64,000 bases of DNA from Tridacna crocea (taxonomy: Eukaryota; Mollusca; Bivalvia; Cardiida; Cardiidae), in assembly GCA_943736015.1 (NCBI GenBank), contig OX031063.1:40626672-40690671 (forward strand). The letters are read 5' to 3'. The position numbers were made by a program, and so were the translations under genes. The notes below the pieces were generated by a model. That model saw nothing but the letters and a program-made list of their open reading frames with translations, searched no databases and was not told where the DNA came from. Of the stretch, positions 2,201-61,569 are shown in pieces (position 1 is the first letter of the stretch; every line of letters begins with the position of its first letter).

Positions 2201-2514
2201 ATCTGTTTGTAGACTCTAATTTGTCATTCATTCATTTGCATTTCTGGGGTGCAGTGCCTTCCATCTTTGTTGTTATGAATAAGTATTCTTATGCCTACTT
2301 TGTATATAGAAAAGAATACCGGTAAATCAAAATCATACTTGAGGTTATAAAATATACATGTACTTTGTCAAGCACTGCTGCCAAGATCTAACTTGGTAAG
2401 AAATGCCTAGAAACGAATTGTATATTTGTGCAATTTATTCCAATTTTTTTTTGCATCTGCTTGTGAAAAAATTATGCAACCTTTAAATTTCTGCAAAGTC
2501 ATAGCAATTCACTG

Positions 2515-2744
2515 TTAACCCATTAACACACAATCCCTACTTTTGACACCCCCAGAAAAAAAGCCTTTTGAAAAAATTGTGGGAAAAGGAGAAAATGCTG
2601 GTTAGCAGCATTTTTCTCCTTTTCCCACAATGTTTTCTACCCTTCACACAACAAATTTCAAATTTTCAGTCGCTTTCATTTTGTCATCTGCAAATGCTTT
2701 CAATTTGGACAAGCCTAAACGATTGCCGTTTGGTAATGAGTTAA
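2515..2744 (+). mobile_element. TTAA palindromic MITE, subfamily A
   Basis: TTAA at 2515-2518 and 2741-2744. The hairpin apex is altered to GCTGGTTAGCAGC, still symmetric. Full length, about 230 bp. Confidence 0.7.
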
Positions 2745-3041
2745 GCGGAAAATCAGCATATTCATTGGCTTTCCAGGGCTCAACACAATTTCTTTTCCTT
2801 TATGATCCAGCAGGAATCCAAAACTGGACACCATTCTGATTATTACGGATCCCTCCAAAGTTAGAAAAAAGTATGTTTTGATTGACCAACTTGTTGTTAT
2901 TACTTGAAGGTTTGGGTTTTTTTTTCTGATAAATTAGATTCATCAGCGTTTTGCTACATCATGGGCCAATAGATCATCATCCTACACCTCCTCATCTATA
3001 ATCTATAATTGTGTAATATACTGGTCTATCCCATAGATAGA

Positions 3042-3047
3042 TATAAA
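3042..3047 (+). promoter_or_regulatory. TATA-like box in LTR 1
   Basis: TATAAA followed by GGTATAA. It recurs in LTR 2 and is TACAAA in LTR 3. It sits about 70 bp before the tRNA-like unit, where a Pol II LTR promoter would be expected. Function is inferred. Confidence 0.4.
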
Positions 3048-3114
3048 GGTATAAAGTACTAAAGTAGTCGGGTACAGGTATTTGGTGATATATCGTGCGG
3101 CCATATCGACATGT

Positions 3115-3188
3115 GGTTCGGTAGCTCAGTTGGTTAGAGTGCAGGAACGGTATTCCTGAGGCCCTGGGTTCGAATCCCGTTAGAGCCG
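3115..3188 (+). tRNA. tRNA-like sequence in LTR 1
   Basis: Folds as a cloverleaf. The acceptor arm GGTTCGG pairs with TAGAGCC (mismatched near its base in this copy). The D arm is GCTC/GAGT. The anticodon stem CAGGA/TCCTG has a 7-nt loop ACGGTAT, formal anticodon GGT. The T arm is around GGTTCGAATCC. The A box TAGCTCAGTTGG and B box GGTTCGAATCC match Pol III consensus. A run of five T (3194-3198) follows within ten bases. Loop position 33 is C, not the universal T, so translation competence is doubtful. Best read as a tRNA-derived Pol III unit rather than a host tRNA gene. Confidence 0.6.
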
Positions 3189-3193
3189 CGATA

Positions 3194-3198
3194 TTTTT
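3194..3198 (+). terminator. Pol III-type T5 terminator in LTR 1
   Basis: Five T residues, five bases past the tRNA-like 3' end. The equivalent runs in LTR 2 (3479-3483) and LTR 3 (3767-3771) are kept. Confidence 0.5.
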
Positions 3199-3214
3199 CA
3201 CCACCTGTTACATT

Positions 3215-3227
3215 TGGCGCCCAACGT
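3215..3227 (+). other. Primer binding site, tRNA-Lys type
   Basis: TGGCGCCCAACGT starts two bases after LTR 1. By established knowledge it is the complement of the last 13 bases, including CCA, of the tRNA-Lys isoacceptor that primes several retroelements. Repeated after LTR 2 at 3500-3512 and absent after LTR 3, as expected for a terminal LTR. Confidence 0.75.
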
Positions 3228-3270
3228 AAATAACCCACTTATTAAGAGAGATAGGGTAGTAGTGGTTGAG

Positions 3271-3288
3271 AGATTCGTGGACGAATCT
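3271..3288 (+). other. Conserved hairpin in TRIM internal domain
   Basis: AGATTCGTGGACGAATCT: eight paired bases around GG. An identical hairpin lies in the second internal domain (about 3556-3573). In such a small internal region this is the only evident structure, so a packaging or dimerisation role is possible but unproven. Confidence 0.45.
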
Positions 3289-3294
3289 TCATGT

Positions 3295-3304
3295 GGAGGG
3301 GAAG
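3295..3304 (+). other. Polypurine tract before LTR 2
   Basis: GGAGGGGAAG, separated from the next LTR by TA. The second internal domain ends GGTGGGGAAG at 3579-3588, just before LTR 3. Confidence 0.65.
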
Positions 3305-3306
3305 TA

Positions 3307-3497
3307 TGTAGCATACTGGTCTATCCCATAGATAGATATAAAGGTATAATGAAGTCGGGTACAGGTATGTGGTGATATATCGTGCGGCCTGATCGACATG
3401 TGGTTCGGTAGCTCAGTTGGTTAGAATGCAGGAACGGTTCCTGAGGCCCTGGGTTCGAATCCCGGTCGAGCCGCGATATTTTTCACCACCTGTTACA
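3307..3497 (+). repeat. LTR 2 of tRNA-bearing TRIM
   Basis: 191 bp, TGTAGCATACTGG to TGTTACA. It differs from LTR 1 by a 9-10 bp deletion after the TATA region, a 2-bp deletion in the anticodon loop and scattered substitutions. Confidence 0.85.
3402..3473 (+). tRNA. tRNA-like sequence in LTR 2 (shortened anticodon loop)
   Basis: Same cloverleaf as in LTR 1, with a better acceptor stem (GGTTCGG with TCGAGCC, wobbles allowed). The anticodon loop is reduced to five bases, ACGGT. A and B boxes and the following T5 run are intact, so it may be transcribable but not decode. Confidence 0.5.
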
Positions 3498-3590
3498 TTT
3501 GGCGCCCAACGTAAATAACCCACTTATTAGAGAGATAGGGTAGTAGTGATTGAGAGATTCGTGGACGAATCTTCATGTGGTGGGGAAGTA

Positions 3591-3785
3591 TGTAATATAC
3601 TGGTCTATCCCATAGATAGATACAAAGGTATAATATAGTCGGGTACAGGTATTTGGTGATATATCGTGCGGCCGTATCGACATGTGGTTCGGTAGCTCAG
3701 TTGGTTAGAGTGTAGGAACGGTATTCCTGAGGCCCTGGGTTCGAATCCTGGTCGAGCCGCGATATATTTTTCACCACCTGTTACA
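3591..3785 (+). repeat. LTR 3 of tRNA-bearing TRIM
   Basis: 195 bp, TGTAATATACTGG to TGTTACA, followed directly by the target duplication ATTG and host DNA with no primer binding site, which marks the true 3' end of the insertion. Confidence 0.85.
3686..3759 (+). tRNA. tRNA-like sequence in LTR 3
   Basis: Cloverleaf with the 7-nt loop ACGGTAT, anticodon stem TAGGA/TCCTG (one G-T pair) and acceptor GGTTCGG/TCGAGCC. The B box is GGTTCGAATCC and a T5 run follows. C33 is again present, as in LTR 1. Confidence 0.6.
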
Positions 3786-4025
3786 ATTGTACTCTTGATG
3801 AATTTGGATACAGAGCACGCATGTCCTGCAAATATGACCCAGAAAATTATGGACTTTTTTGTGTGATACAATTAAAATGATTAAGTACAGATGGGCTATC
3901 AGCAAAGTATTTAATGTAAACATGTGCAAAGAAAATAGATTTAGGCCTGTGTCAAAAGAAATTCAGTACTGGCAATTGTATATGTACTATGACTGTGAGT
4001 GAATGGTCTCCTCGATGGAGAGAAA

Positions 4026-4312
4026 TTTTAAAAAAAAATGTAAAACATGATGGATATCTACCCTGAAAAGGTGTCTACTGAGGAATCGCCAAATGTCGCA
4101 GGTACATTTTTCTGTTGTCTATTGCTAGGCTAAGTAAATTATGATCTGACAATGTTTGTTTCGTGGGTGATTTTGGGTGGGAAAGGCTGTCTTGTCCTAG
4201 CGCCGGCAATCAAGAGGTTGCATTCCATATGTTTATATTATATAGGGGAGATTATTTTTTCATATTTGATAATTTATTTTGGTTATAGAATGTCAAATTC
4301 CTGTGGTTGGAA
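4026..4312 (+). repeat. Dispersed repeat, + copy
   Basis: A segment around the motifs TCGTGGGTGATTTTGG, TAGCGCCGGCAATC and TATTATATAGGGGAGAT recurs in reverse complement at about 28322-28645. No termini or coding sequence were defined, so its class is unknown. Confidence 0.55.
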
Positions 4313-29049: not shown

Positions 29050-32000
29050 GCCATGGCAACCAAAAGGAAAGAAATAGCAAAATCTTTGAAAATCTTCTTC
29101 TCTGAAACTAGAAGGTGCAGAGCTTTGATATTTGGTATGTAGCATCTGCTAGTGGACCTATACCAAGATTGTTCATATGTTGCCCCTAGGGTCAAAACTG
29201 GCCCCACCCCAGGGGTCACAAGTTTGAAACATAGGAACAAAACAGGAAAATTTTAAAAATCTTCTTCTCTGAAACTAGAAGGCGTAGAACTTTGATATTT
29301 GGTATGTAGCATCTCCTAGTAGACATCTACCAAGGCTGTCCATATGATGCTCCTGGGGTCAAAACTGGCCCCGCCCTGGGGATCACAAGTTTGAAACATA
29401 GGAACAAAGAAAGAAAACTTTAAAAACTTCTCTGAAACTAGAAGGCGTAGGACTTTGATATTTGGTACATATATGTAGCATCTCCTAGTAGACATCTACC
29501 AAGGCTGTCCATATGATGCTCCTGGGGTCAAAACTGGCCCCGCCCTGGGGATCACAAGTTTGAAACATAGGAACAAAGAAAGAAAACTTTAAAAACTTCT
29601 CTGAAACTAGAAGGCGTAGGACTTTGATATTTGTTACATATATGTAGCATCTCCTAGTGGACTTCTACCAAGATTGTTCATATGATGCCCCTGGGGTCAA
29701 AACTGGCCCGCCCCAGGGTTCACAAGTTTGAAACATAGGAACAAAGAAGAAAAACTTTAAAATTCTTCTTCTCTGAAACTAGAAGGTGCAGAGCTTTAAT
29801 ATTTGGTATGTAGCATCTCCTAGTGGACTTCTACCAAGATTGTTCATATGATGCCCTGGAGTCAAAACTGGCCCCGCCCCGGGGTTCACAAATTTGAAAC
29901 ATATTAACAAAGAAAGAAAAGTTTAAAATTTTTATTTTCTGAAACCAGATGATGCAAAGCTTTGATATTTGGTAAGTAGCATCTCCTAGTGGACCTCTAA
30001 GAAGATTGTTCATATGATGCCCCTGGGGTCAAATTGGCCCCACCCTGGGGGCACAAGTTTGAAACATCGGAACAAAGAAGGAAAACTTTAAAAATCTTCT
30101 TCTCTGAAACTAGATGGTTCAGAGCTTTGATATTTGGTATGTAGCATCTCCTAGTGGATTTCTACCAAGATTGTTCATATGATGCCCCTGGGGTCAAAAC
30201 TGGCCCCGCACTGTGGGTCACAAGTTTGAAACATAGGAACAAAAAAGGAAAACTTTAAAATTCTTCGTCTCTGAAACTACATAGTGCAAAGCTTTGATAT
30301 TTGGTATGTAAATCTCTTAGTGGACTTCTACCAAGTTTGTTCATATGATGCCCCTGGGGTCAAAACTGGCCCTGCTCCGGCGTAACAAATTTGAAACATA
30401 GGAACAAAGAATGAAAACTATAAAATTCTTCTTCTCTGAAAATAGAAAGTGCAGAGCAATGATATTTGGTATCTAGCGTCTCCTAGTGGACCTCTATCAA
30501 AATTGTTCATATGATATCCCTGGGGTCAAATTGGCCCCACCCTGGGGGTCACAAGTTTGAAACAAAGAAGGAAAACTTTAAAAATCTTTTTCTCTGAAAC
30601 TAGAAGGTGCAGAGCTTTGATATTTGGTATGTAGCATCTTCCAGTAGACATCTACCAAGATTGTTCATATGATGCCCCTGGGGTTAAAACTGGCCCCGCC
30701 CCGTGGGTCACAAGTTTGAAACATAGGAACAAAGAAGAAAAACTTTAAAAATTCTTATTTTCTGAAACTAGACGGTGCAAAGCTTTGATATTTGGTATGT
30801 AACATCTCTTAGTGGACTTCTACCAAGTTTGTTCATATGATGCCCATTGGGTCAAAACTGGCCCCGCCCTGGGGGTCACAGGTTTGAGACATAGGAACAA
30901 AGAAGGAAAACTATAAAATTCTTCTCTGAAACTAGAAGGTGCAGAGCTTTGATATTTGGTATGTAGCATCTCCTATTGGACATCTACGAAGATTGTTCAT
31001 ATGATGCCCCTGAGATCAAAACTGGCCCCTCCCTCGGGGTCACAAGTTTGAAACATCGGAACAAAGAAGGAAAACTTTAAAAATATTCTCTCTGAAACTA
31101 GATGGTTCAGAGCTTTGATATTTGGTATGTAGCATCTCCTAGTGGATTTCTACCAAGATTGTTCATATGATGCCCCTGGGGTCAAAACTGGCCCCGCACT
31201 GTGGGTCACAAGTTTGAAACATAGGAACAAAGAAAGAAAACTTTAAAATTCTTCTCTGAAACTAGATGGTGCAAAGCTTTGATATTTGGTATGTAACATC
31301 TCTTAGTGGACTTTCTATCAAGTTTGTTCATATGATGCCCCTTGAGTCAAAACTGGCCCTGCTCCGGCGTAACAAATTTGAAACATAGGAACAAAGAATG
31401 AAAACTATAAAAAACTTCTTCTCTGAAAATAGAAAGCAATGATATTTGGTATCTAGCGTCTCCTAGTAGACCTCTACCAAGATTGTTCATATGATATCCC
31501 TGGGGTCAAATTGGCTCCACCCTGGGGGTCACAAGTTTGAAACACTGAAACAAAGAAGGAAAACTTTAAAAATCTTTTTCTCTGAAACTAGAAGGTGCAG
31601 AGCTTTGATATTTGGTATGTAGCATCTTCCAGTAGACATCTACCAAGATTGTTCATATGATGCCCCTGGAGTCAAAACTGGCCCCGCCCCGTGGGTCACA
31701 AGTTTGAAACATAGGAACAAAGAAGAAAAACTTTAAAAATTCTTTTTTTCTGAAACTAGATGGTGCAAAGCTTTGATATTTGGTATGTAACATCTCTTAG
31801 TGGACTTCTACCAAGTCTGTTCTTATGATGCCCATGGGGTCAAAACTGGCCCCGCCCTGGGGGTCACAGGTTTGAGACATAGGAACAAAGAAAGAAAACT
31901 ATAAAATTCTTCTCTGAAGCTAGAAAGTGAAGAGCTGTGATATTTGGTATGTAGCATCTCCTAGTCGACCTCTACGAAGATTGTTCATATGATGCCCCTG

Positions 32001-32250
32001 AGATCAAAACTGGCCCCTCCCTCGGGGTCACAAGTTTGAAACATCGGAACAAAGAAGGAAAACTTTAAAAATCTTCTTCTCTGAAACTAGATGGTTCAGA
32101 GCTTTGATATTTGGTATGTAGCATCTCCTAGTGGATTTCTACCAAGATTGTTCATATGATGCCCCTGGGGTCTAAACTGGCCCCTCCCCGGGGTTCACAA
32201 GTTTGAAACATAGGAACAAAGAAGGAAATCAGAATCATTTGTCCTTGAAC
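29050..32250 (+). repeat. Tandem array of about 167-bp units with a higher-order period near 988 bp
   Basis: About nineteen units, marked by CTTTGATATTTGGTATGTAG. Successive spacings are 163-172 bp. Variant units recur at long range: GATGGTTCAGAGCTTTGAT occurs at 30113, 31101 and 32090 (988-989 bp apart, about six units), with the neighbouring units also matching. Each unit carries TGGGGTCAAAACTGGCCCC and TCTCTGAAACTAGA. Confidence 0.8.
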
Positions 32251-34261: not shown

Positions 34262-35301
34262 TTTTTAGCTCACCTGAGCACGAAGTGCTCATGGTGAGCT
34301 TTTGTGATCGCGCAATGTCCGTCGTCCGTCGTCCACAATTTCTTTAAAACATCTTCTCCCCCTAAACCGCTAGGCTGATCTTGATGAAAATTGGCAGGGA
34401 TGTTCATTAGATGAAGCTCTACCAAAGTTGTTCAGGAGATTGAATTCAAGCCATAACTCTGGTTGCCATGGCAACCAAAAGGAAAAAAACAGCAAAATCT
34501 TTGAAAATCTTCTTCTCTGAAACTAGAAGGTGCAGAGCTTTGATATTTGGTATGTAGCATATTTGGTAGTAAACCTCTACCAGGATTGTTCATATGATGC
34601 CCCTGGGGTCAAAACTGGCCCCGCCCCGGGGGTCACAAGTTTGAGACATAGGAACAAAGAAGAAAAACTTTAAAATCTTCTTCTCTGAAACTAGAAGGTA
34701 CAGAGCTTTGATATTTGGTATGTAGCATCTCCTAGTGGACCTCTACCAAGATTGTTCATATGATGCCCCTGGGGTCAAAACTGGCCCCGCACTGTGGGTC
34801 ACAAGTTTGAAACATAGTAACAAAGAAGGAAAACTTTAAAATTTTTATTTTCTGAAACCAGATGATGCAAAGCTTTGATATTTGGTAAGTAGCATCTCCT
34901 AGTGGACCTCTAAGAAGGGTCAAAACTGGCCCCACCCCGGGGGTCAAAAGTTTGAAACATATGAACAAAGAAGGAAAAACTTAAATTTCTTCTTCTCTAA
35001 AACTAGAAGGTGCAGAGCTTTGATATTTGGTATGTAGCATTTCCTTGTGAACCTCTACCAAGATTGTTCATATGATGCCCCTGGGGTCAAAACTGGCCCG
35101 GCCCCGGGGTCACAAGTTTGAAACATAGGAACATAGAAGGAAAACTTTAAAAATCTTCTCTAAAAGTAGAAGACGCATTTTGGACAGTCACCCTCTCAGA
35201 ATTATTTGACATTGAACTTTGATATTTGGTACTTATCTTCATTGTAGACCTTTACTGCTTAGTAGTGAGGTGAGCGATATAGGACCATCATAGTCCTCTT
35301 G
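34262..35301 (+). mobile_element. Long non-autonomous element, family 3, complete short copy
   Basis: TTTTTAGCTCACCTGAGC, hairpin GAGCACGAAGTGCTC, GTCCGTCGTCCGTCG run, about five 160-170 bp units, then AGGTGAGCGATATAGGACCA, TCATAGTCC and TCTTG. Both ends are present, so it gives the boundaries for the family. Confidence 0.65.
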
Positions 35302-36076: not shown

Positions 36077-39000
36077 TTTTAGCTCACCTGAGCACAACGT
36101 GCTTAAGGGGAGCTTGTAGGATCACCCGGTGTCCGTGGGCCAATTTGGACCAAACTTGGCTGGAATGTTCCTTGGGAGGTCCTCTTTAAGAATTGTTAGC
36201 AGAATTTGATTCTGTCAAAATCTCTGGTTGCCATGGCAATCAAATGGAATTTTCTGGGAAATTCTTTAAAAATCTTCTCCTCTGAAACCGCTGGCCCGAT
36301 TTTAAAATAATTTCACAGAGATGTTCCTTGGGTGACCCTTTTCAAAAACTGTTCGTGAAATTTTGATCCGTCCAGAAACACGGCTCTGGTGAATGGGGGC
36401 TACTTGCACTCTAAGATAAAGAAGAAATTCTTAAAAATTCTTCTTCTCTGAAACCACTGGTCAAATTTTGAAAAAAAAATTCAGGGATGTTCTTTGAGTG
36501 ACCCTTTTAAAAAAATGTTCGCGAAATTTTGATCCGTCAAGAATTATGGCTCGGGTGAATAGGGGCTACTTGCACTATAAGGCAAAGAAGAAATTCATAA
36601 AAATTCTTCTCTGAAACCACAGATCAGATTTTGAAATAATTTCTTAGGGATGTTCTTTGGGTGACCCTTTTGAAATGTTCGCGAAAATTTGATCTGTCAA
36701 GAAACATGGCTCTGTTGAATGGGGGCTACTTGCATTTTACGGACATGAAGAAATTCTTGAAAATTCTTCTTCTCTGAAACCGCTGGCCAGATTTTGAAAA
36801 ATTTCAGAGTTATTCCTTGGGTGACCCTTTTAAAAAATGTTCGCGAAATTTTGATCCGTCAAGAAACATGGCTCTGGTAAATGGGGGCTACTTGAACTAT
36901 ACGGATATGAAGAAATTCTTGAAAATTCCTCTTCTCTGAAACCACTGGTAAGATTTTTAGCTCACCTGAGCACGAAGTGCTCATAGTGAGCTTTTGTGAT
37001 CGACCAATGTACGGCGTCCGTCGTCCGTTGTGCGTCGTCCACAATTTCTTTAAACATCTTCTCCTCCTAAACCACTGGGCTAATCTTGATGAAACTTGGC
37101 AGGGATGTTCCTTGGGTAAAGCTCTACCAAAGGTCTTCAAGAGATTAAATTCCATCCATAACTCTTGTTGCCATGGCAACTAAAAGGAAAAAATGGCAAA
37201 ATCTTTAAAAATCTTCTTTTCTGAAACTAGAGGGCGTAGAGCTTTGATATTTGGTATGTAGCATCTGCTAGTGGACCTCTACTAAGATTGTTCAAAACTG
37301 GCCTTGCCCCGGGGGTCACAAATTTGAAACATACATGTAGGAATAAAGAAAGAAAACTTTAAAAATCTTCTTCTCTGAAACAAGAAGGTGCAGGTTTGAT
37401 ATTTGGTATATAGCATCTCCTGGTGGACCTCTACCAAGATTGTTCATATGATGCCCCTGGGGTCAAAACTGGCCCGGACCCGGAGGTCACAAGTTTGAAA
37501 CATAGAAATAAAGAAGGAAAACTTTAAAATTCTTCTTCTCTGAAACTAGAAGATGTAGAGCTTTGATATTTGGAAAGTAGGATCTCCTAGTAGAGTTCTA
37601 CAGTGTTTGCTCGTATGCTGTCCCTGGGGTCAAAACTTGCCATACCCCGTGGGTCACAAGTTCGAAACATAGGAACCAAGAAGGAAAACTTTAAAAATCT
37701 TCTCTGAAACTGGAAGGAGTAGAGCTTTGATATTTGGTATGTAGCATCTGCTGGTGGACCTCTACCAAGTTTGTTCATATGATGCCCCAGGGGTCCAAAC
37801 AGGCCCTGCCACGGGGGTCACAAGTTTGAAAATAGGAACAAAGAAGGAAAACTTTAAAATTCTTCTTCTCTGAAACTGGAAGGCTTAGAGCTTTGATTTT
37901 TTTATGAAGCATCTCCTAGTAAACTTCTTCCAAGTTTGTTTATATGATGTCCCTGGGGTCCAAACTGACCCCGCCCCAGGGGTAACAAGTTTGAACATGG
38001 GAAAAAAAGGAAAACTTTGTAATTTTTCTTCTTTGATACCAGAAGGTGTTGAGCTTTGATATTTGGTATAAAGCATCTCCGAGTGGATCTCTCCTAAGTT
38101 CAATCATATGATGCCCCTGGTGTCATAATTGGCCCCGCCCCGGGGGTCACAAGTTTAAACATGGGAACTAAAAAGGAAAAATTTAAAATGTTTCTTCTCT
38201 GAAACTAGAAGGTGTAGAGCTTTGATATTTGGTATGTAGCATCTACTAGTAGACCTCTAACAAGTTTGTTCATAAGATGTCCCAGGGGCCAAAACTGGCC
38301 CCGCCCAGGGGTCACAAATTCTAAACATATGAACAAAGAAGGAAAACTTTAAAATTCTTCTGAGAGCTTTGATATTTGGTAAGTAGTGAACCTGTTCAAA
38401 GTTTGTTAGCCCTCCTGAGCACAGGATGTTCACTGGGGTCAAAATTGAGTCACCTTGGGTCATAAACTAGGTCACTATGTTAAATTGATACCTTGTAGAG
38501 GCCACATTTTCTTGCTCAGCTGACTTGAAAATTAGTCAGAATGTTTGTCTTGATAAAATCTCACATGAGACTGCATTTAGTTCTTGTCTTCAATATGACT
38601 TTGTCATCTCAAGTCATAACCACTTCAAACTTGGTATGCATGTTTGTTGCAATATCACTGGGTACTGTGTGCAAGAACAGTAACTCTACCTAGCTCGGAT
38701 TTTGAGTAATTCCACTTTGATATTTATTTTTACAGTATTTCTTGCTTGTTCAGAATGGAACTTTGAAGTCTCAAGTCAAATTGACTTGAGACTTGGTGAA
38801 CATGTTTGTTGTATTGCCTGCCCTTTGCAACTATTATGCCTCCTTGACAACTGCCGGTGGGATGGGCATGTGTTGCGACAATTTGCCTCTCTTGTTTCAT
38901 TATCATTTGGCCTTGAACCTCAATATTTGGTATTTATCTTCATTGTAGACCTTTACTGCTTAGTACTCAGGTGAGCGATATAGGAACATCATGGTCCTCT

Positions 39001-40905: not shown

Positions 40906-41409
40906 TCTTTTGTTTCGATACCTATTGCTTAAAATAGGTGTGCACCGAAAAGAAAATCTATCACCGTAGCATACGTCGATTTTTTTGTGCAGGGTATTAA
41001 AATTAAAACCACGTTATTTCCAATCCCAGTATTTTAATTGAATCGGCAAGTCATTGTTTTTTCCACGAATAGTATAAGTGAACTAAACATAAACAAAATC
41101 AAGATTGAAAATGATTTTTTCAGGAATTTGTTTTTATTAACTGTCATCAGAGACCTAATACTGATAACTTCAGTTTGTTTGACAATGTGCTAATAACGTT
41201 ACAGTATACTGAGACAGTATCTTGGACGAATGTGCAAGTGAAAATATACACGTATACCGTTCGATGGCTGGAAGCATGCTTGGCATAAATTTATAATTTT
41301 TTATACCTCACTTCTTTAAGCAAGTGATTACCAATGACAATGTTGTACGTGAAAAAAATCTATGTTTTGAGAACTGATAAATTTTATTGAATAAATAACA
41401 AACAGAAAG
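40906..41409. other. Upstream region of GPCR 1
   Basis: AT-rich. No repeat or clear promoter element recognised. A splice acceptor for an upstream non-coding exon could be present but was not identified. Confidence 0.3.
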
Positions 41410-42615
41410 ATGACAGAGAACTTGACTCAAGAACACGAGGAACAATTCGAAAACGTGCCACTTGCGCTTATCGTTATGATGCGGTTCACTGCAGTCTTTA
41501 TTCTATTGTTGAATGGAACTGTGCTTCTTTGTCTCTGTGTGAAGAAACAGAACATGCCGAGAATCTACACTTTACAAATGGTGTGTTTATGTCTTACAGA
41601 CAATATGGCGGGTGCTGCCCTGTTGGCCATGTCTTTTGCGGATTATGATTGGTTTAGAACCGACATCATACGGTGTTGCTTTCTTCTTGGCTTCTTTATA
41701 TCATCGCAGTCCACAACACTCTATAACGTGACAGCCATCTGTATTAACAGGTTTATAATTATGTTACGGATGGACAAGTTGGATCACCATCTGACCAGAG
41801 CTAAAGTAATTGCATTTAGCGCAGTTGCCTTAATGTTCGGATTCGTGTTTTGTTCTGTCCCCTTTTTCTTATGGAAACCCCAGCAAGAATACTTGCACAA
41901 CACTGGTTGTTCCATGGAAACAGTTTTCCGTGAAAAATTGGTTTCGTCAATGAAAGTGTTCCTTGGAACTTTCTTGTTTCCACTTCTTATTACAAACCTC
42001 CTGTACGGGTGTCTAGTATTCATGCTACGTCAAAAACATAGACGTATTCGTCCAGAGCTTCATTCCATGACTGAGAGAGGCGGGCCATCTAACATAAAAC
42101 CACACACGAAGAGGATCATTCAGGAAACTACAGACAGCGGACGGGGATCGTCAACCGACCCCTCTTTTGCGATAACAGCAAACTCTTCTTTGGCAAGACA
42201 GGGTACTTCAATGGCAAGGGGCATTTTAAATCAGAACACATGGAAAAGTAGGGTCGGTCAAGAAAACATGGAAGGGGCCTCTACTTCAAGAGTCAAATTG
42301 GTTCAGCAGCCGACAAACAATGTGCCGTCATCTCTGACGACCAACTCGGATAGAAGAACGCACCAAAGCAGAGCATTTGCGTTATTAGGTTTCATACTTT
42401 TGTTCCTTAATATCTTCTCTTGGCCTGGTGTAAGTGTGTTAATGATGGAAAGTGTTATAGATTCGTGGTCGCTTTCCAGAGGCGCAAAATTCCCATTGTT
42501 CACAACCATAACTTTTAACTCGCTCATAAACCCTATTTTATATACTGTCAGGGTGAAAGAGTTCCGAAAAGCTCTTTTCGACACGTTCTTTTGCACCCCA
42601 CCAAGATCACGATAA
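41410..42615 (+). CDS. Orphan class A (rhodopsin-like) GPCR, intronless, paralogue 1
   Basis: 401 aa with seven hydrophobic segments: about 17-43, 55-77, 87-112, 131-153, 183-206, 322-345 and 363-382. Family marks are N35 in LLNGT (TM1), D64 in LTDN (TM2), a C90/C167 pair able to form the TM3-ECL2 disulfide, P191 in TM5, SWPG (337-340) in place of CWxP, and NPILY (374-378) in TM7. The DRY motif is INRF, with N113 replacing the acidic residue and R114 kept. The position of the aminergic TM3 aspartate is F96, so a biogenic-amine receptor is unlikely. The third intracellular loop is long (about 207-320), Ser/Thr/Gln-rich and poorly conserved between the paralogues. N4 in NLT is a possible glycosylation site. 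No signal peptide is evident. Expected at the plasma membrane; ligand and G protein unknown. Upstream of the ATG is ATAAATAACAAACAGAAAG. Confidence 0.88.
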   Translation: MTENLTQEHEEQFENVPLALIVMMRFTAVFILLLNGTVLLCLCVKKQNMPRIYTLQMVCLCLTDNMAGAALLAMSFADYDWFRTDIIRCCFLLGFFISSQSTTLYNVTAICINRFIIMLRMDKLDHHLTRAKVIAFSAVALMFGFVFCSVPFFLWKPQQEYLHNTGCSMETVFREKLVSSMKVFLGTFLFPLLITNLLYGCLVFMLRQKHRRIRPELHSMTERGGPSNIKPHTKRIIQETTDSGRGSSTDPSFAITANSSLARQGTSMARGILNQNTWKSRVGQENMEGASTSRVKLVQQPTNNVPSSLTTNSDRRTHQSRAFALLGFILLFLNIFSWPGVSVLMMESVIDSWSLSRGAKFPLFTTITFNSLINPILYTVRVKEFRKALFDTFFCTPPRSR

Positions 42616-53147: not shown

Positions 53148-53715
53148 TCCTCATCTCTGGCTAGATTGATTACCTCCCCTGATACAATAAAAGGACCAGT
53201 TTCATCTCTGGCTAGATCGATTACCTTCCCTGATACAATAAAAGGACCAGTTTCATCTCTGACTAGATCGATTACCTCCCCTGATACAATAAAAGGACCA
53301 GTTTCATCTCTGGCTAGATCGATTACCTCCCCTGATACAATAAAAGGACCAGTTTCATCTCTGGCTAGATCGATTACCTCCCCTGATACAATAAAAGGAC
53401 CAGTTTCATCTCTGGCTAGATCGATTACCTCCCCTGATACAATAAAAGGACAGTTTCATCTCTGGCTAGATCGATTACCTCTCCTGATACAATAAAAGGA
53501 CCAGTTTCATCTCTGGCTAGATCGATTACCTCTCCTGATACAATAAAAGGACTAGTTTCATCTCTGGCTAGATCGATTACCTCCCCTGATACAATAAAAG
53601 GACCAGTTTCATCTCTGGCTAGATCGATTACTTTCCCTTATACAATAAAAGGACCAGTTTCATCTCTGGCTAGATCGATTACCTTCCCTGATACAATAAA
53701 AGGACCAGTTTCATC
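53148..53715 (+). repeat. 51-bp minisatellite, about eleven copies
   Basis: Unit recognised by CTCTGGCTAGATCGATTACC and CTGATACAATAAAAGGACC. Since 51 is divisible by three, an open frame (53094-53495) runs through the first copies; a one-base deletion near 53451 closes it. The copies are very similar. Confidence 0.9.
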
Positions 53716-59863: not shown

Positions 59864-60360
59864 GACACAATGATATTACTTACAGACTTAAAGAAATGCA
59901 AGAAATGACAGAATACACCATTATTGTTAACAATACTGAAACTATTATTTTCAAAGAAATAAATATTGTCAGTACATTTATTGAAAACAATTATAATATA
60001 TGAGTTCTTTACATATTTGCAGGATTTATATTAAGACCAAGGGATACTGTCCCCGAGTTTTGATAAGAGCGTCATAACAGGAGTCGTTTGAATTCCCAGT
60101 CCCGATGGGACTATGGGATAAAAACTGAAAAGGATACCTACCGTCCTTTCCTTGAGAAGGTTGAAAAGATGAAAGGAAACTTTGCAGGGAGCTTGTCTAG
60201 AGTGCCCGAGGATCGCCCGTAAAGTATCTGTAATGAGTCTGTTAGAAGAAAGCAGAACCCATATTCTTCTTTAGAGATCAGTGGTTCAAAACGATCAGCT
60301 AATATAGCTATTAATTATCTGAGACAAATGGTTCATGAATTACATGTCAATATCAGTAAA
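59864..60360. other. Upstream region of GPCR 2
   Basis: No repeat recognised. An in-frame ATG at 60328 would add 11 residues to the receptor. No convincing promoter motif. Confidence 0.3.
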
Positions 60361-61569
60361 ATGTCTGCAAACACAACCGATGGGTTTTATGAACAATCTG
60401 AGAGAGTATCAATGCCATTCATTTTCATGATGCGAATCATGGCTTTCATAATTCTGTGTTTAAATGGAACGGTACTCTTTTGTATCTGTGTGAAAAAATA
60501 CAGTATGCCGAGAATCTACACGTTGCAGATTCTTTGTCTGTGTCTCACAGACAACATGGCCGGAGCAGCCCTCCTGGCCATGTCATTCATGGACTATGAT
60601 TGGTTTAGAACCGACATTATTCGGTGTTGTTTTCTTCTTGGCCTTTTCATGTCATCGCAGTCTGCAACGCTTTATAACGTGACGGCGATATGTATTAACA
60701 GATTTATAATTATGTTACGGATGGACAGGATGGATAATCATCTGACCAGAGCTAAAGTAATTGCATTTAGCTTAGCAGCTTTAGTTTTTGGCATAACGTT
60801 TTGTTCTTTGCCTTTCATATTTTGGGGGCCTGACTTAGGGTACAAAACCAAAACTGGCTGCTCAATGGAAGCAGCCTTTGGCGAAAACATTAGATCCTCA
60901 ATTAAAGTATTTTTCGGAACTTTCCTATTCCCGTTGCTGATCACAAACTTCCTGTATGGATGTTTGTTTTTCATGATACGACGCAAACTAAGACAGATTC
61001 GTCCAGAAACTCATGCTGACCCGGGCGAGGATGCTCCGTCTTACATAAAACTGCGCACAAAGAACCAGATAGGCAGCAGGTGGGTTGCATCGAGCTATCA
61101 AGTTTATAGTCAAAGAGCGGGACCTGCAAACTTAAGCACCTGTCTACGTGACACTTCAACAACTAATATGAATAAGACAAGATGGACAAAACGTGACGGT
61201 AGGGAAAACAACAGTTTGAATTTTCACGTGGGACGTATAGCGGTGGTTAGTCATTCGAATGCAAATACGGCACAATCCACATCAACTTCCGCAGCTGAAA
61301 GACGATTGTACCAGAATAAAGCATTTACATTGATTGGATTCATACTTCTTTTCCTGAACATATGTACTTGGCCGGGTATTTTGGTTTTAATGAAGGGTTT
61401 TCTCATTGATTCGTGGTCTCTGTCTAGAGGGTTGACTGTCCTCTTGTTCTGCAGTATAAGTTTTAACTCAATTATAAATCCGATTTTATACACCGTACGA
61501 TTGAAAGAATTTCGAAAAGTTCTCTGTGATATATTCTTATGTTCTCATTCGAGAACCGTTTTTCGATGA
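60361..61569 (+). CDS. Orphan class A (rhodopsin-like) GPCR, intronless, paralogue 2
   Basis: 402 aa from the ATG at 60361, which is chosen over the in-frame ATG at 60328 because MSANTTDGFYEQSERVSMPF then aligns without gaps to the start of paralogue 1. In this numbering: TM1 LNGT, TM2 LTDN (D64), TM3 with CINRF (N113, R114, F115), TM6 CTWPG (335-339) and TM7 NPILY (373-377). Cysteines at TM3 (C89/C90) and ECL2 (C167) are kept. No TM3 aspartate of the amine receptors (F96). The long third loop is unrelated in length and sequence to that of paralogue 1 beyond its first residues, whereas TM2-TM3 are almost identical, including at DNA level (GATTGGTTTAGAACCGACAT). Possible N-glycosylation at NTT. 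Plasma membrane receptor; ligand unknown. AATAAA at 61656-61661 could end the transcript. Confidence 0.88.
   Translation: MSANTTDGFYEQSERVSMPFIFMMRIMAFIILCLNGTVLFCICVKKYSMPRIYTLQILCLCLTDNMAGAALLAMSFMDYDWFRTDIIRCCFLLGLFMSSQSATLYNVTAICINRFIIMLRMDRMDNHLTRAKVIAFSLAALVFGITFCSLPFIFWGPDLGYKTKTGCSMEAAFGENIRSSIKVFFGTFLFPLLITNFLYGCLFFMIRRKLRQIRPETHADPGEDAPSYIKLRTKNQIGSRWVASSYQVYSQRAGPANLSTCLRDTSTTNMNKTRWTKRDGRENNSLNFHVGRIAVVSHSNANTAQSTSTSAAERRLYQNKAFTLIGFILLFLNICTWPGILVLMKGFLIDSWSLSRGLTVLLFCSISFNSIINPILYTVRLKEFRKVLCDIFLCSHSRTVFR

Follow-up and report, generated by a model that had tools for sequence, protein, structure and literature searches.

What sort of element carries a tRNA-like unit, built like an RNA polymerase III (Pol III) gene, in each of its long terminal repeats (LTRs), and how is such an element transcribed and copied? 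The question is raised by a short repeat of the bivalve Tridacna crocea that lies in a 64,000-nucleotide stretch of DNA (the window) on contig C8 of the 1.05-Gb genome. The first-pass annotation had called it a miniature LTR retrotransposon. We found that positions 3012-3785 are indeed made of such an element, but as a three-LTR tandem (LTR-internal-LTR-internal-LTR) rather than as one simple element; it is noncoding and has ATTG on both flanks (Table 1). Tandem-repeat detection reported 2.7 copies of a 284-bp period at 3012-3789.

The three LTRs share the ends TGTA...TTACA, LTR 1 and LTR 2 are each followed by TT and then TGGCGCCCAACGT, and the internal regions end in GGAGGGGAAG or GGTGGGGAAG and then TA. 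The TG...CA repeats, primer site, polypurine tract, and ATTG duplication described earlier are therefore all present. No open reading frame (ORF) of at least 150 amino acids in the ORF list overlaps 3012-3785, and 5S rRNA is absent among 25 Rfam matches to window positions 2500-4300. ARAGORN called a tRNA in each of the three LTRs, the Rfam RF00005 scores all exceed the gathering score of 29 bits, and a run of five Ts begins no more than 10 bases downstream of each tRNA-like part. A cloverleaf followed by T5 in every LTR, as first proposed, thus holds, with the qualification that the anticodon loop of LTR 2 is 2 nt shorter. Because the LTRs are 95.3% (LTR 1-LTR 2), 94.2% (LTR 2-LTR 3), and 96.9% (LTR 1-LTR 3) identical and the internal regions 97.8% identical, the tandem is not brand new.

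Table 1. Coordinates of the three-LTR tandem and its parts in the window
Feature	Position	Strand	Basis
Target-site duplication, left copy, ATTG	3008..3011	+	sequence reading
LTR 1, 201 bp, TGTAAT...GTTACA	3012..3212	+	sequence reading, repeat detection, comparison
TATA-like stretch within LTR 1	about 3042-3055	+	
tRNA-like unit 1	3115..3188	+	ARAGORN, Rfam 41.5 bits
A box and B box in tRNA-like unit 1	A box about 3122-3133; B box about 3167-3177	+	by eye
T5 run, Pol III terminator-like, after tRNA-like unit 1	3194..3198	+	
Internal region 1, 94 bp	3213..3306	+	
13-nt tRNA-Lys primer site, internal region 1	3215..3227	+	read against tRNA genes
Polypurine tract GGAGGGGAAG	3295..3304	+	
LTR 2, 191 bp	3307..3497	+	
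tRNA-like unit 2, anticodon loop 2 nt shorter	3402..3473	+	ARAGORN, Rfam 41.2 bits
Internal region 2, 93 bp (primer site 3500-3512; purine-rich tract 3579-3588)	3498..3590	+	
LTR 3, 195 bp	3591..3785	+	
tRNA-like unit 3, top tRNA score of the three	3686..3759	+	ARAGORN, Rfam 49 bits
Target-site duplication, right copy, ATTG	3786..3789	+	sequence reading

Other features of the window and the genome are recorded here. A near-palindromic repeat with arms TGTGGGAAAAGGAGAAAATGCTGGT lies at 2566-2640 and has 43 further matches, making 44 in the 64 kb at three or fewer mismatches (chance mean, 0.00). It recurs in 78 of 145 fetched loci (18 overlapping loci dropped), all Rfam microRNA matches to it are below the gathering scores, and it is probably an abundant foldback element. 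Arrays of a roughly 145- to 166-bp repeat, with up to 19 copies, occupy 29080-32228, 34494-35057, and 36258-38361, and a 51-bp tandem repeat (11 copies, 96% matches) occupies 53151-53715. Two GPCR-like ORFs, at 41395-42615 and 60223-61569, look like paralogues by eye; the latter has five database relatives at no more than 59% identity. Elsewhere, positions 26516-27850 of contig C31 hold a COX1 gene with three TGA codons. This contig is probably mitochondrial, with a length of at least 27.8 kb that we take to be large for animal mitochondrial DNA.

The window element is a terminal-repeat retrotransposon in miniature (TRIM) of the Helenus group, a kind already known; we assigned it by shared features, comparing the published families by description. 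Kojima (2024; PMC10886601) gave the name Helenus (TRIMp3) to TRIMs with a tRNA in the LTR, reported sizes of 311 to 1263 bp, and described 51 families from five orders of pteriomorph bivalves. The clam element resembles them in its A and B boxes within the LTR, primer site, purine tract, 4-bp duplications (as in animal Helenus elements; PMC10886601), absence of coding capacity, and TRIM size, as well as in its solo LTRs and tandem arrays, the latter reported for LTR-11_DR (PMC10886601). According to the same report, the primers of bivalve families include tRNA-Lys, seven bivalve families could encode tRNA-Thr, and the LTR tRNA has no complementarity to the primer site, which agrees with the present data. 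In that account, the origin of Helenus by SINE insertion is a proposal and the Pol III promoter is unvalidated. The primer-tRNA fusions, chimeras with partner elements, and possible exchange of tRNA parts between families described below are absent from the portions of PMC10886601 used here.

Two other TRIM systems invite comparison. Cassandra of plants (PMC7215508) and the clam element are both TRIMs whose LTRs hold a Pol III-type gene followed by a terminator, and both form tandem LTR-internal arrays, but Cassandra carries 5S rRNA where the clam LTR carries a tRNA-like part. The tRNA-based animal counterpart of Cassandra envisaged in the first-pass annotation, with a Pol III-type unit in its LTRs, therefore exists and has already been described as Helenus. 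The bivalve biv-TRIM (PMC6934838) is of similar size and also forms solo and tandem copies; it is described there with repeats of 202 to 218 bp, an internal part of 77 to 80 bp, and no identifiable primer site, whereas the internal parts here are 93 to 94 bp with a clear primer site. The conserved biv-TRIM sequence TGATCCCAAAGGAC is absent from both internal regions of the window element.

The element is dispersed through the genome. With its first 289 bp as the query, we obtained at least 83 matches (40 of 1021 candidates scored), 42 of which span the LTR and internal region. The last 19 bases of the LTR 3' end occur at 1025 places with two or fewer mismatches, versus 73 for the reversed pattern, and the LTR end joined to the native primer site occurs at 290 places with three or fewer mismatches, versus 0 for the control; the window element and its sister families have about 1000 LTR 3' ends in the genome. 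Most two-LTR copies are 480 to 486 bp long. A perfect 4-bp duplication flanks 24 of the 28 distinct multi-LTR copies among the best matches, or 23 of 27 independent copies, since L024 and L027 have common flanks. These two loci lie on different contigs with identical immediate flanks and are probably part of a duplicated segment. All 42 LTRs in the 20 best-matching genomic loci reach the RF00005 gathering score, and the tRNA part is accordingly no chance insertion at one locus. Full, single, and tandem copies were found, and other copies carry the primer site, purine tract, and duplication.

A less selected sample consisted of the first 100 exact LTR ends listed, from contigs C1 to C4, which we grouped into 82 clusters and classified by BLAST. 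Here the window family, family A, was represented by 21 single LTRs (10 with a perfect duplication), 17 LTR-I-LTR copies (I, internal region; 9 with a perfect duplication), and 1 LTR-I-LTR-I-LTR copy, also with a perfect duplication. Three of the 21 single LTRs lead into a primer site and so are not true solo LTRs. In 36 further clusters, the similarity to the A LTR was partial only, with the match starting at LTR position 49 to 54 in about 29 of them, as in family B (below), and 7 clusters of mixed form had no perfect duplication. Among 41 pairs of family A LTRs, the median identity was 97.9% and 6 pairs were 100% identical, so the family moved recently. The 284-bp tandem period and a tRNA-like promoter of the kind found in SINEs might also be expected of a satellite or SINE array imitating an LTR element. 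We regard such an array as very improbable, given that dispersed copies run from TG to CA, have the primer site and purine tract, and are flanked by 4-bp duplications, which single LTRs have as well.

Three sister families show which parts of the LTR are held in common. In family B (L065, L075, and L095), the LTR is about 152 bp long and starts with TGTAGC, and the internal region measures about 122 bp. The family is without the first ~52 nt of the A LTR, TATA-like stretch included, but keeps the tRNA-like part, T-run, U5, and primer site, has the first ~26 nt of the internal region in common with family A, and forms complete LTR-I-LTR copies. The net divergence between 41 A and 19 B LTRs (the B pairs being the 19 of 62 left by an internal-region filter) amounts to 2.2% for the shared U3 and to 0.1% each for the tRNA-like part and the sequence behind it. 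Family C (L121, L125, L131, L134, L137, L141, and L143) has another LTR and another tRNA-like part, which Rfam reported at an E value of 0.01 or lower in 4 of 7 loci (33 to 44 bits). Family D (L127, L135, and L140) has, as judged by eye, the 5' U3 and internal region of family A, with a different tRNA-like part; Rfam reported no tRNA in any of its 3 loci, and by eye no T-run follows the unit. From this comparison, a tRNA-like part is common to the families and the TATA-like stretch is not. The TATA box had been put forward as a second promoter, a role for the group that does not fit the multiplication of family B without that segment.

How the genomic RNA is made is the point at which the two main readings part. 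In the reading we consider probable, the locus is a tandem (three LTRs and two internal regions) of a Helenus-group TRIM with a Pol III unit, packaged in trans, primed by tRNA-Lys-CTT, and integrated with 4-bp duplications. The tRNA-like unit, through its A and B boxes, and the downstream T5 would together act as a Pol III transcription unit. Transcripts would begin about ten bases ahead of the tRNA-like unit in the 5' LTR and end at the T-run of the 3' LTR, R would correspond roughly to the tRNA-like unit, and read-through of the first T-run would be required. A longer LTR retrotransposon that also uses tRNA-Lys would supply the packaging, reverse transcription would be primed by cellular tRNA-Lys-CTT in particles shared with other LTR elements, and an element of about 480 bp (LTR-I-LTR) would integrate with a 4-bp duplication.

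The required read-through tells against Pol III, since most Pol III transcripts would be expected to terminate at the T5 of the 5' LTR, short of full length. Within the last 45 nt, a run of at least four Ts occurs in 79 of the 82 entries for A LTRs and in 36 of the 38 for B (the middle LTRs of tandems being entered twice). Tandem arrays of Cassandra are reported to give multi-unit transcripts, presumably by LTR read-through (PMC7215508). A second reading, possible but clearly the less likely, has the same TRIM making its genomic RNA with Pol II from the TATA-like stretch, the tRNA-like part being a passenger or the source of a short Pol III RNA. It would account for the TATA-like stretch of the A LTR and escape the early termination expected at the T-runs. 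On the other hand, family B multiplied without the TATA-like stretch, AATAAA is absent by eye from the window LTRs, and the tRNA-like part has almost no net divergence between A and B.

Scarcity of T-runs elsewhere in the element gives Pol III no specific support, as would suit the Pol II reading. In family A, runs of at least four Ts number 1 in U3 versus 49 expected by shuffling and 2 in the internal region versus 12, but runs of at least four As, a control that should be neutral, are equally scarce (3 versus 28 and 5 versus 19). In family B, the counts are 2 versus 12 (U3) and 7 versus 9 (internal) for Ts and 0 versus 2 and 5 versus 8 for As. We therefore rejected T-run avoidance as support for Pol III because it is unspecific. 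We likewise rejected the use of 5'-truncated copies to place the RNA start, because their starts are scattered; L162 starts 13 nt and L109 starts 25 nt before the tRNA-like unit, too few cases to use. These scattered starts, like the missing T-run of family D, count against the reading we favor.

Priming by tRNA-Lys is well supported. Five tRNA-Lys-CTT genes (L147 to L151) have the same mature 73 nt and match the primer site; the native A site matches the tRNA 3' end over 13 nt and then reads GTAAATA instead of GTGGGGC. Pol III transcripts of the element had been suggested as possible primers, of which we saw no sign: the primer is cellular tRNA-Lys-CTT, and its sequence is fused to aberrant copies. 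A 17-mer of a longer tRNA-Lys match occurs exactly at 13 places and with one mismatch at 25 more (reversed control, 0). Seven of the exact places lie behind A or B LTRs (two in L124), 2 lie in family C internal regions (L121 and L125), and 4 lie elsewhere; other LTR-like elements with the exact 17-mer are L117, L120, and L126 (two places). In A and B loci, the match to tRNA-Lys is 18 nt long in L069, L122, and L124, 19 nt in L119, and 20 nt in L123, and in L118 it continues into the tRNA.

These lengths recall the plus-strand strong-stop DNA of HIV, which is also primed by tRNA-Lys: synthesis stops at 18 nt, before m1A58, whereas on an unmodified tRNA it continues to the 5' end of that tRNA (PMC13191261). 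The HIV products are replication intermediates, whereas those described here are integrated in the genome, where the aberrant copies, judged by their sequence, look like fossils of reverse transcription that would record both the stop and the read-through. Of 40 candidate places, 21 were fetched, and we rejected the reading of all 40 as tRNA derived, because the variants in L068, L083, L095, and L101 enter B internal regions, so that they could be native. An 18-nt site stands in register before B internal sequence in both L101 and L068, differing from tRNA-Lys-CTT at 1 and 2 positions, respectively; this would be expected of a site inherited from the primer, and a native variant would look the same.

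Four loci carry 45 to 76 nt of tRNA-Lys. In L160 (contig C4; the same locus as L118), an LTR-I-LTR copy leads into a primer site, then into about 70 nt of tRNA-Lys, and finally into an inverted LTR. In L155 (C15), a B LTR and primer site continue into at least 65 nt of tRNA-Lys with GTTACA at the end. L159 (C3) is another LTR element, with 45 nt of tRNA-Lys, of which 44 are identical, and a second LTR copy, joined at a stretch of similarity. In L158 (C4), the LTR, internal region, purine tract, and U3 are those of Helenus A. A tRNA-Lys, complete with its CCA and slightly diverged, then stands where the tRNA-like part would be; beyond it lies the inverted end of another LTR (P), and the unit terminates in the forward end of P. 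The tRNA-Lys of L158 meets the Helenus U3 within one base of the expected start of the tRNA-like part, in a shared A-box context. Misincorporation at m1A58, considered as proof of an RNA template, gave a mixed picture, with C for T at this position in L160 and L158 and no such change in L159 and L155. We also searched with a 34-mer that spans the junction of primer site and tRNA; it occurs at 7 places, namely, the five tRNA genes, L159, and L155; L160 and L158 are too diverged to be detected by it.

In a second chimera, L034 (C12), the LTR-end sequence of an element Q lies inside the first LTR of a Helenus A copy; this sequence is 91% identical over 79 nt to L142, where the Q end precedes a tRNA-Lys-type site. 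Q has 27 matching places. Two of them form a pair on the same strand of C2, near C2:73549385 and C2:73558474, with a spacing of 9.1 kb that could be the size of a coding LTR retrotransposon. For the mobilization of Helenus by a Gypsy element sharing its primer type, the chimeras offer P and Q, known by their LTR parts and joined next to tRNA-Lys sites, as candidate partners. Copackaging with other LTR elements is supported.

We checked both ends of 14 aberrant units, placing them by eye with some freedom left. Perfect 4-bp duplications flank five (L034, TTTG; L098, TTGC; L158, TTAT; L160, CAAA; and L161, GGGA), versus about 0.05 expected by chance among 14. Three of four bases match in L069, L123, L128, and L155, and the flanks of L119, L124, L139, L159, and L162 do not match. 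The right end of L158 was sought once the left duplication was known, and it falls at the LTR end of P. The five are most simply read as having integrated as whole units, and assembly errors or later DNA rearrangements are therefore unlikely for them.

These checks bear on an alternative in which the LTR-tRNA-Lys fusions arose by DNA recombination or the longer primer sites arose by recombination with Helenus families that have 18-nt sites. Families C and D and some B copies do have longer (18-nt) primer sites of their own, L069 has 4 further nt in common with family C behind its 18 nt, and 9 of the 14 aberrant units are without a perfect duplication. Such recombination would not be expected to give the five perfect duplications or the run of 45 to 76 nt of tRNA-Lys from the primer site in L160, L155, L158, and L159, which is seen in no normal Helenus copy, and we think it improbable. 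In the reading we favor, the joins would have arisen during reverse transcription in shared particles.

Four side observations concern other composite loci. L126 (C17:435840-437560) is a palindromic copy of another LTR-like element, with an LTR end, a tRNA-Lys-type primer site, and inverted sequence, which places foldback products also outside Helenus. L156 (C6:19500000-19500800) is a tRNA-Lys-like pseudogene with an encoded CCA at its end and no evident adjoining LTR. L161 has 118 nt of foreign sequence (positions 803-920) inside a Helenus palindrome with a perfect duplication; one of the six frames of the insert is open over 38 codons, possibly as a pol fragment, and the insert matched no other fetched locus except L122, at the same place. 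In L128 (C2:13130500-13131070), an LTR and primer site are followed by a coding-like stretch ending in a 14-nt copy of the U5 end.

No report of integrated primer-tRNA fusions appeared in the literature surveyed, which was covered by titles and the openings of abstracts and is weak evidence of absence; PMC10886601 was the one paper on Helenus among those retrieved. Ohshima and Okada reportedly proposed in 1993 that a fusion of strong-stop DNA with the primer tRNA-Lys gave rise to tRNA SINEs. That model, a hypothesis of SINE origin, predicts LTR/U5 sequence joined to primer tRNA, as is seen here.

With the L158 fusion, capture of the primer tRNA becomes a concrete hypothesis, rivaling SINE insertion, of how LTRs came to bear tRNAs. 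Plus-strand synthesis would pass the 18-nt primer site and reach the tRNA 5' end, and the nascent strand would then move onto the RNA of another element. That Helenus gains or exchanges its tRNA parts in this way is a tentative idea, which we hold to be rather unlikely as it stands. L158 is a single copy and by itself does not demonstrate that capture founded any family. Similarity of the tRNA-like parts to tRNA-Lys, considered as proof of capture, was uninformative (aligned positions, 47/76 for A, 48/73 and 51/74 for C, and 42/82 for D). Capture, if true, would explain why families A and D have a common 5' U3 and internal region with different tRNA-like parts and why A and B have a common tRNA-like part with a different 5' U3 and most of the internal region different.

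Animal TRIMs with Pol III-type promoters are recent discoveries. What is new here is that primer tRNA sequence has been written into aberrant insertions, a direct trace of copying, and that candidates for the partner elements sharing a particle with Helenus are indicated by two chimeras. The L158 type of fusion is a testable route by which an LTR may acquire a tRNA gene, and copies of this sort add falsely to the tRNA genes counted in genome annotation. Repeated capture, if true, would give rise to new tRNA-bearing LTR families without SINE insertion.
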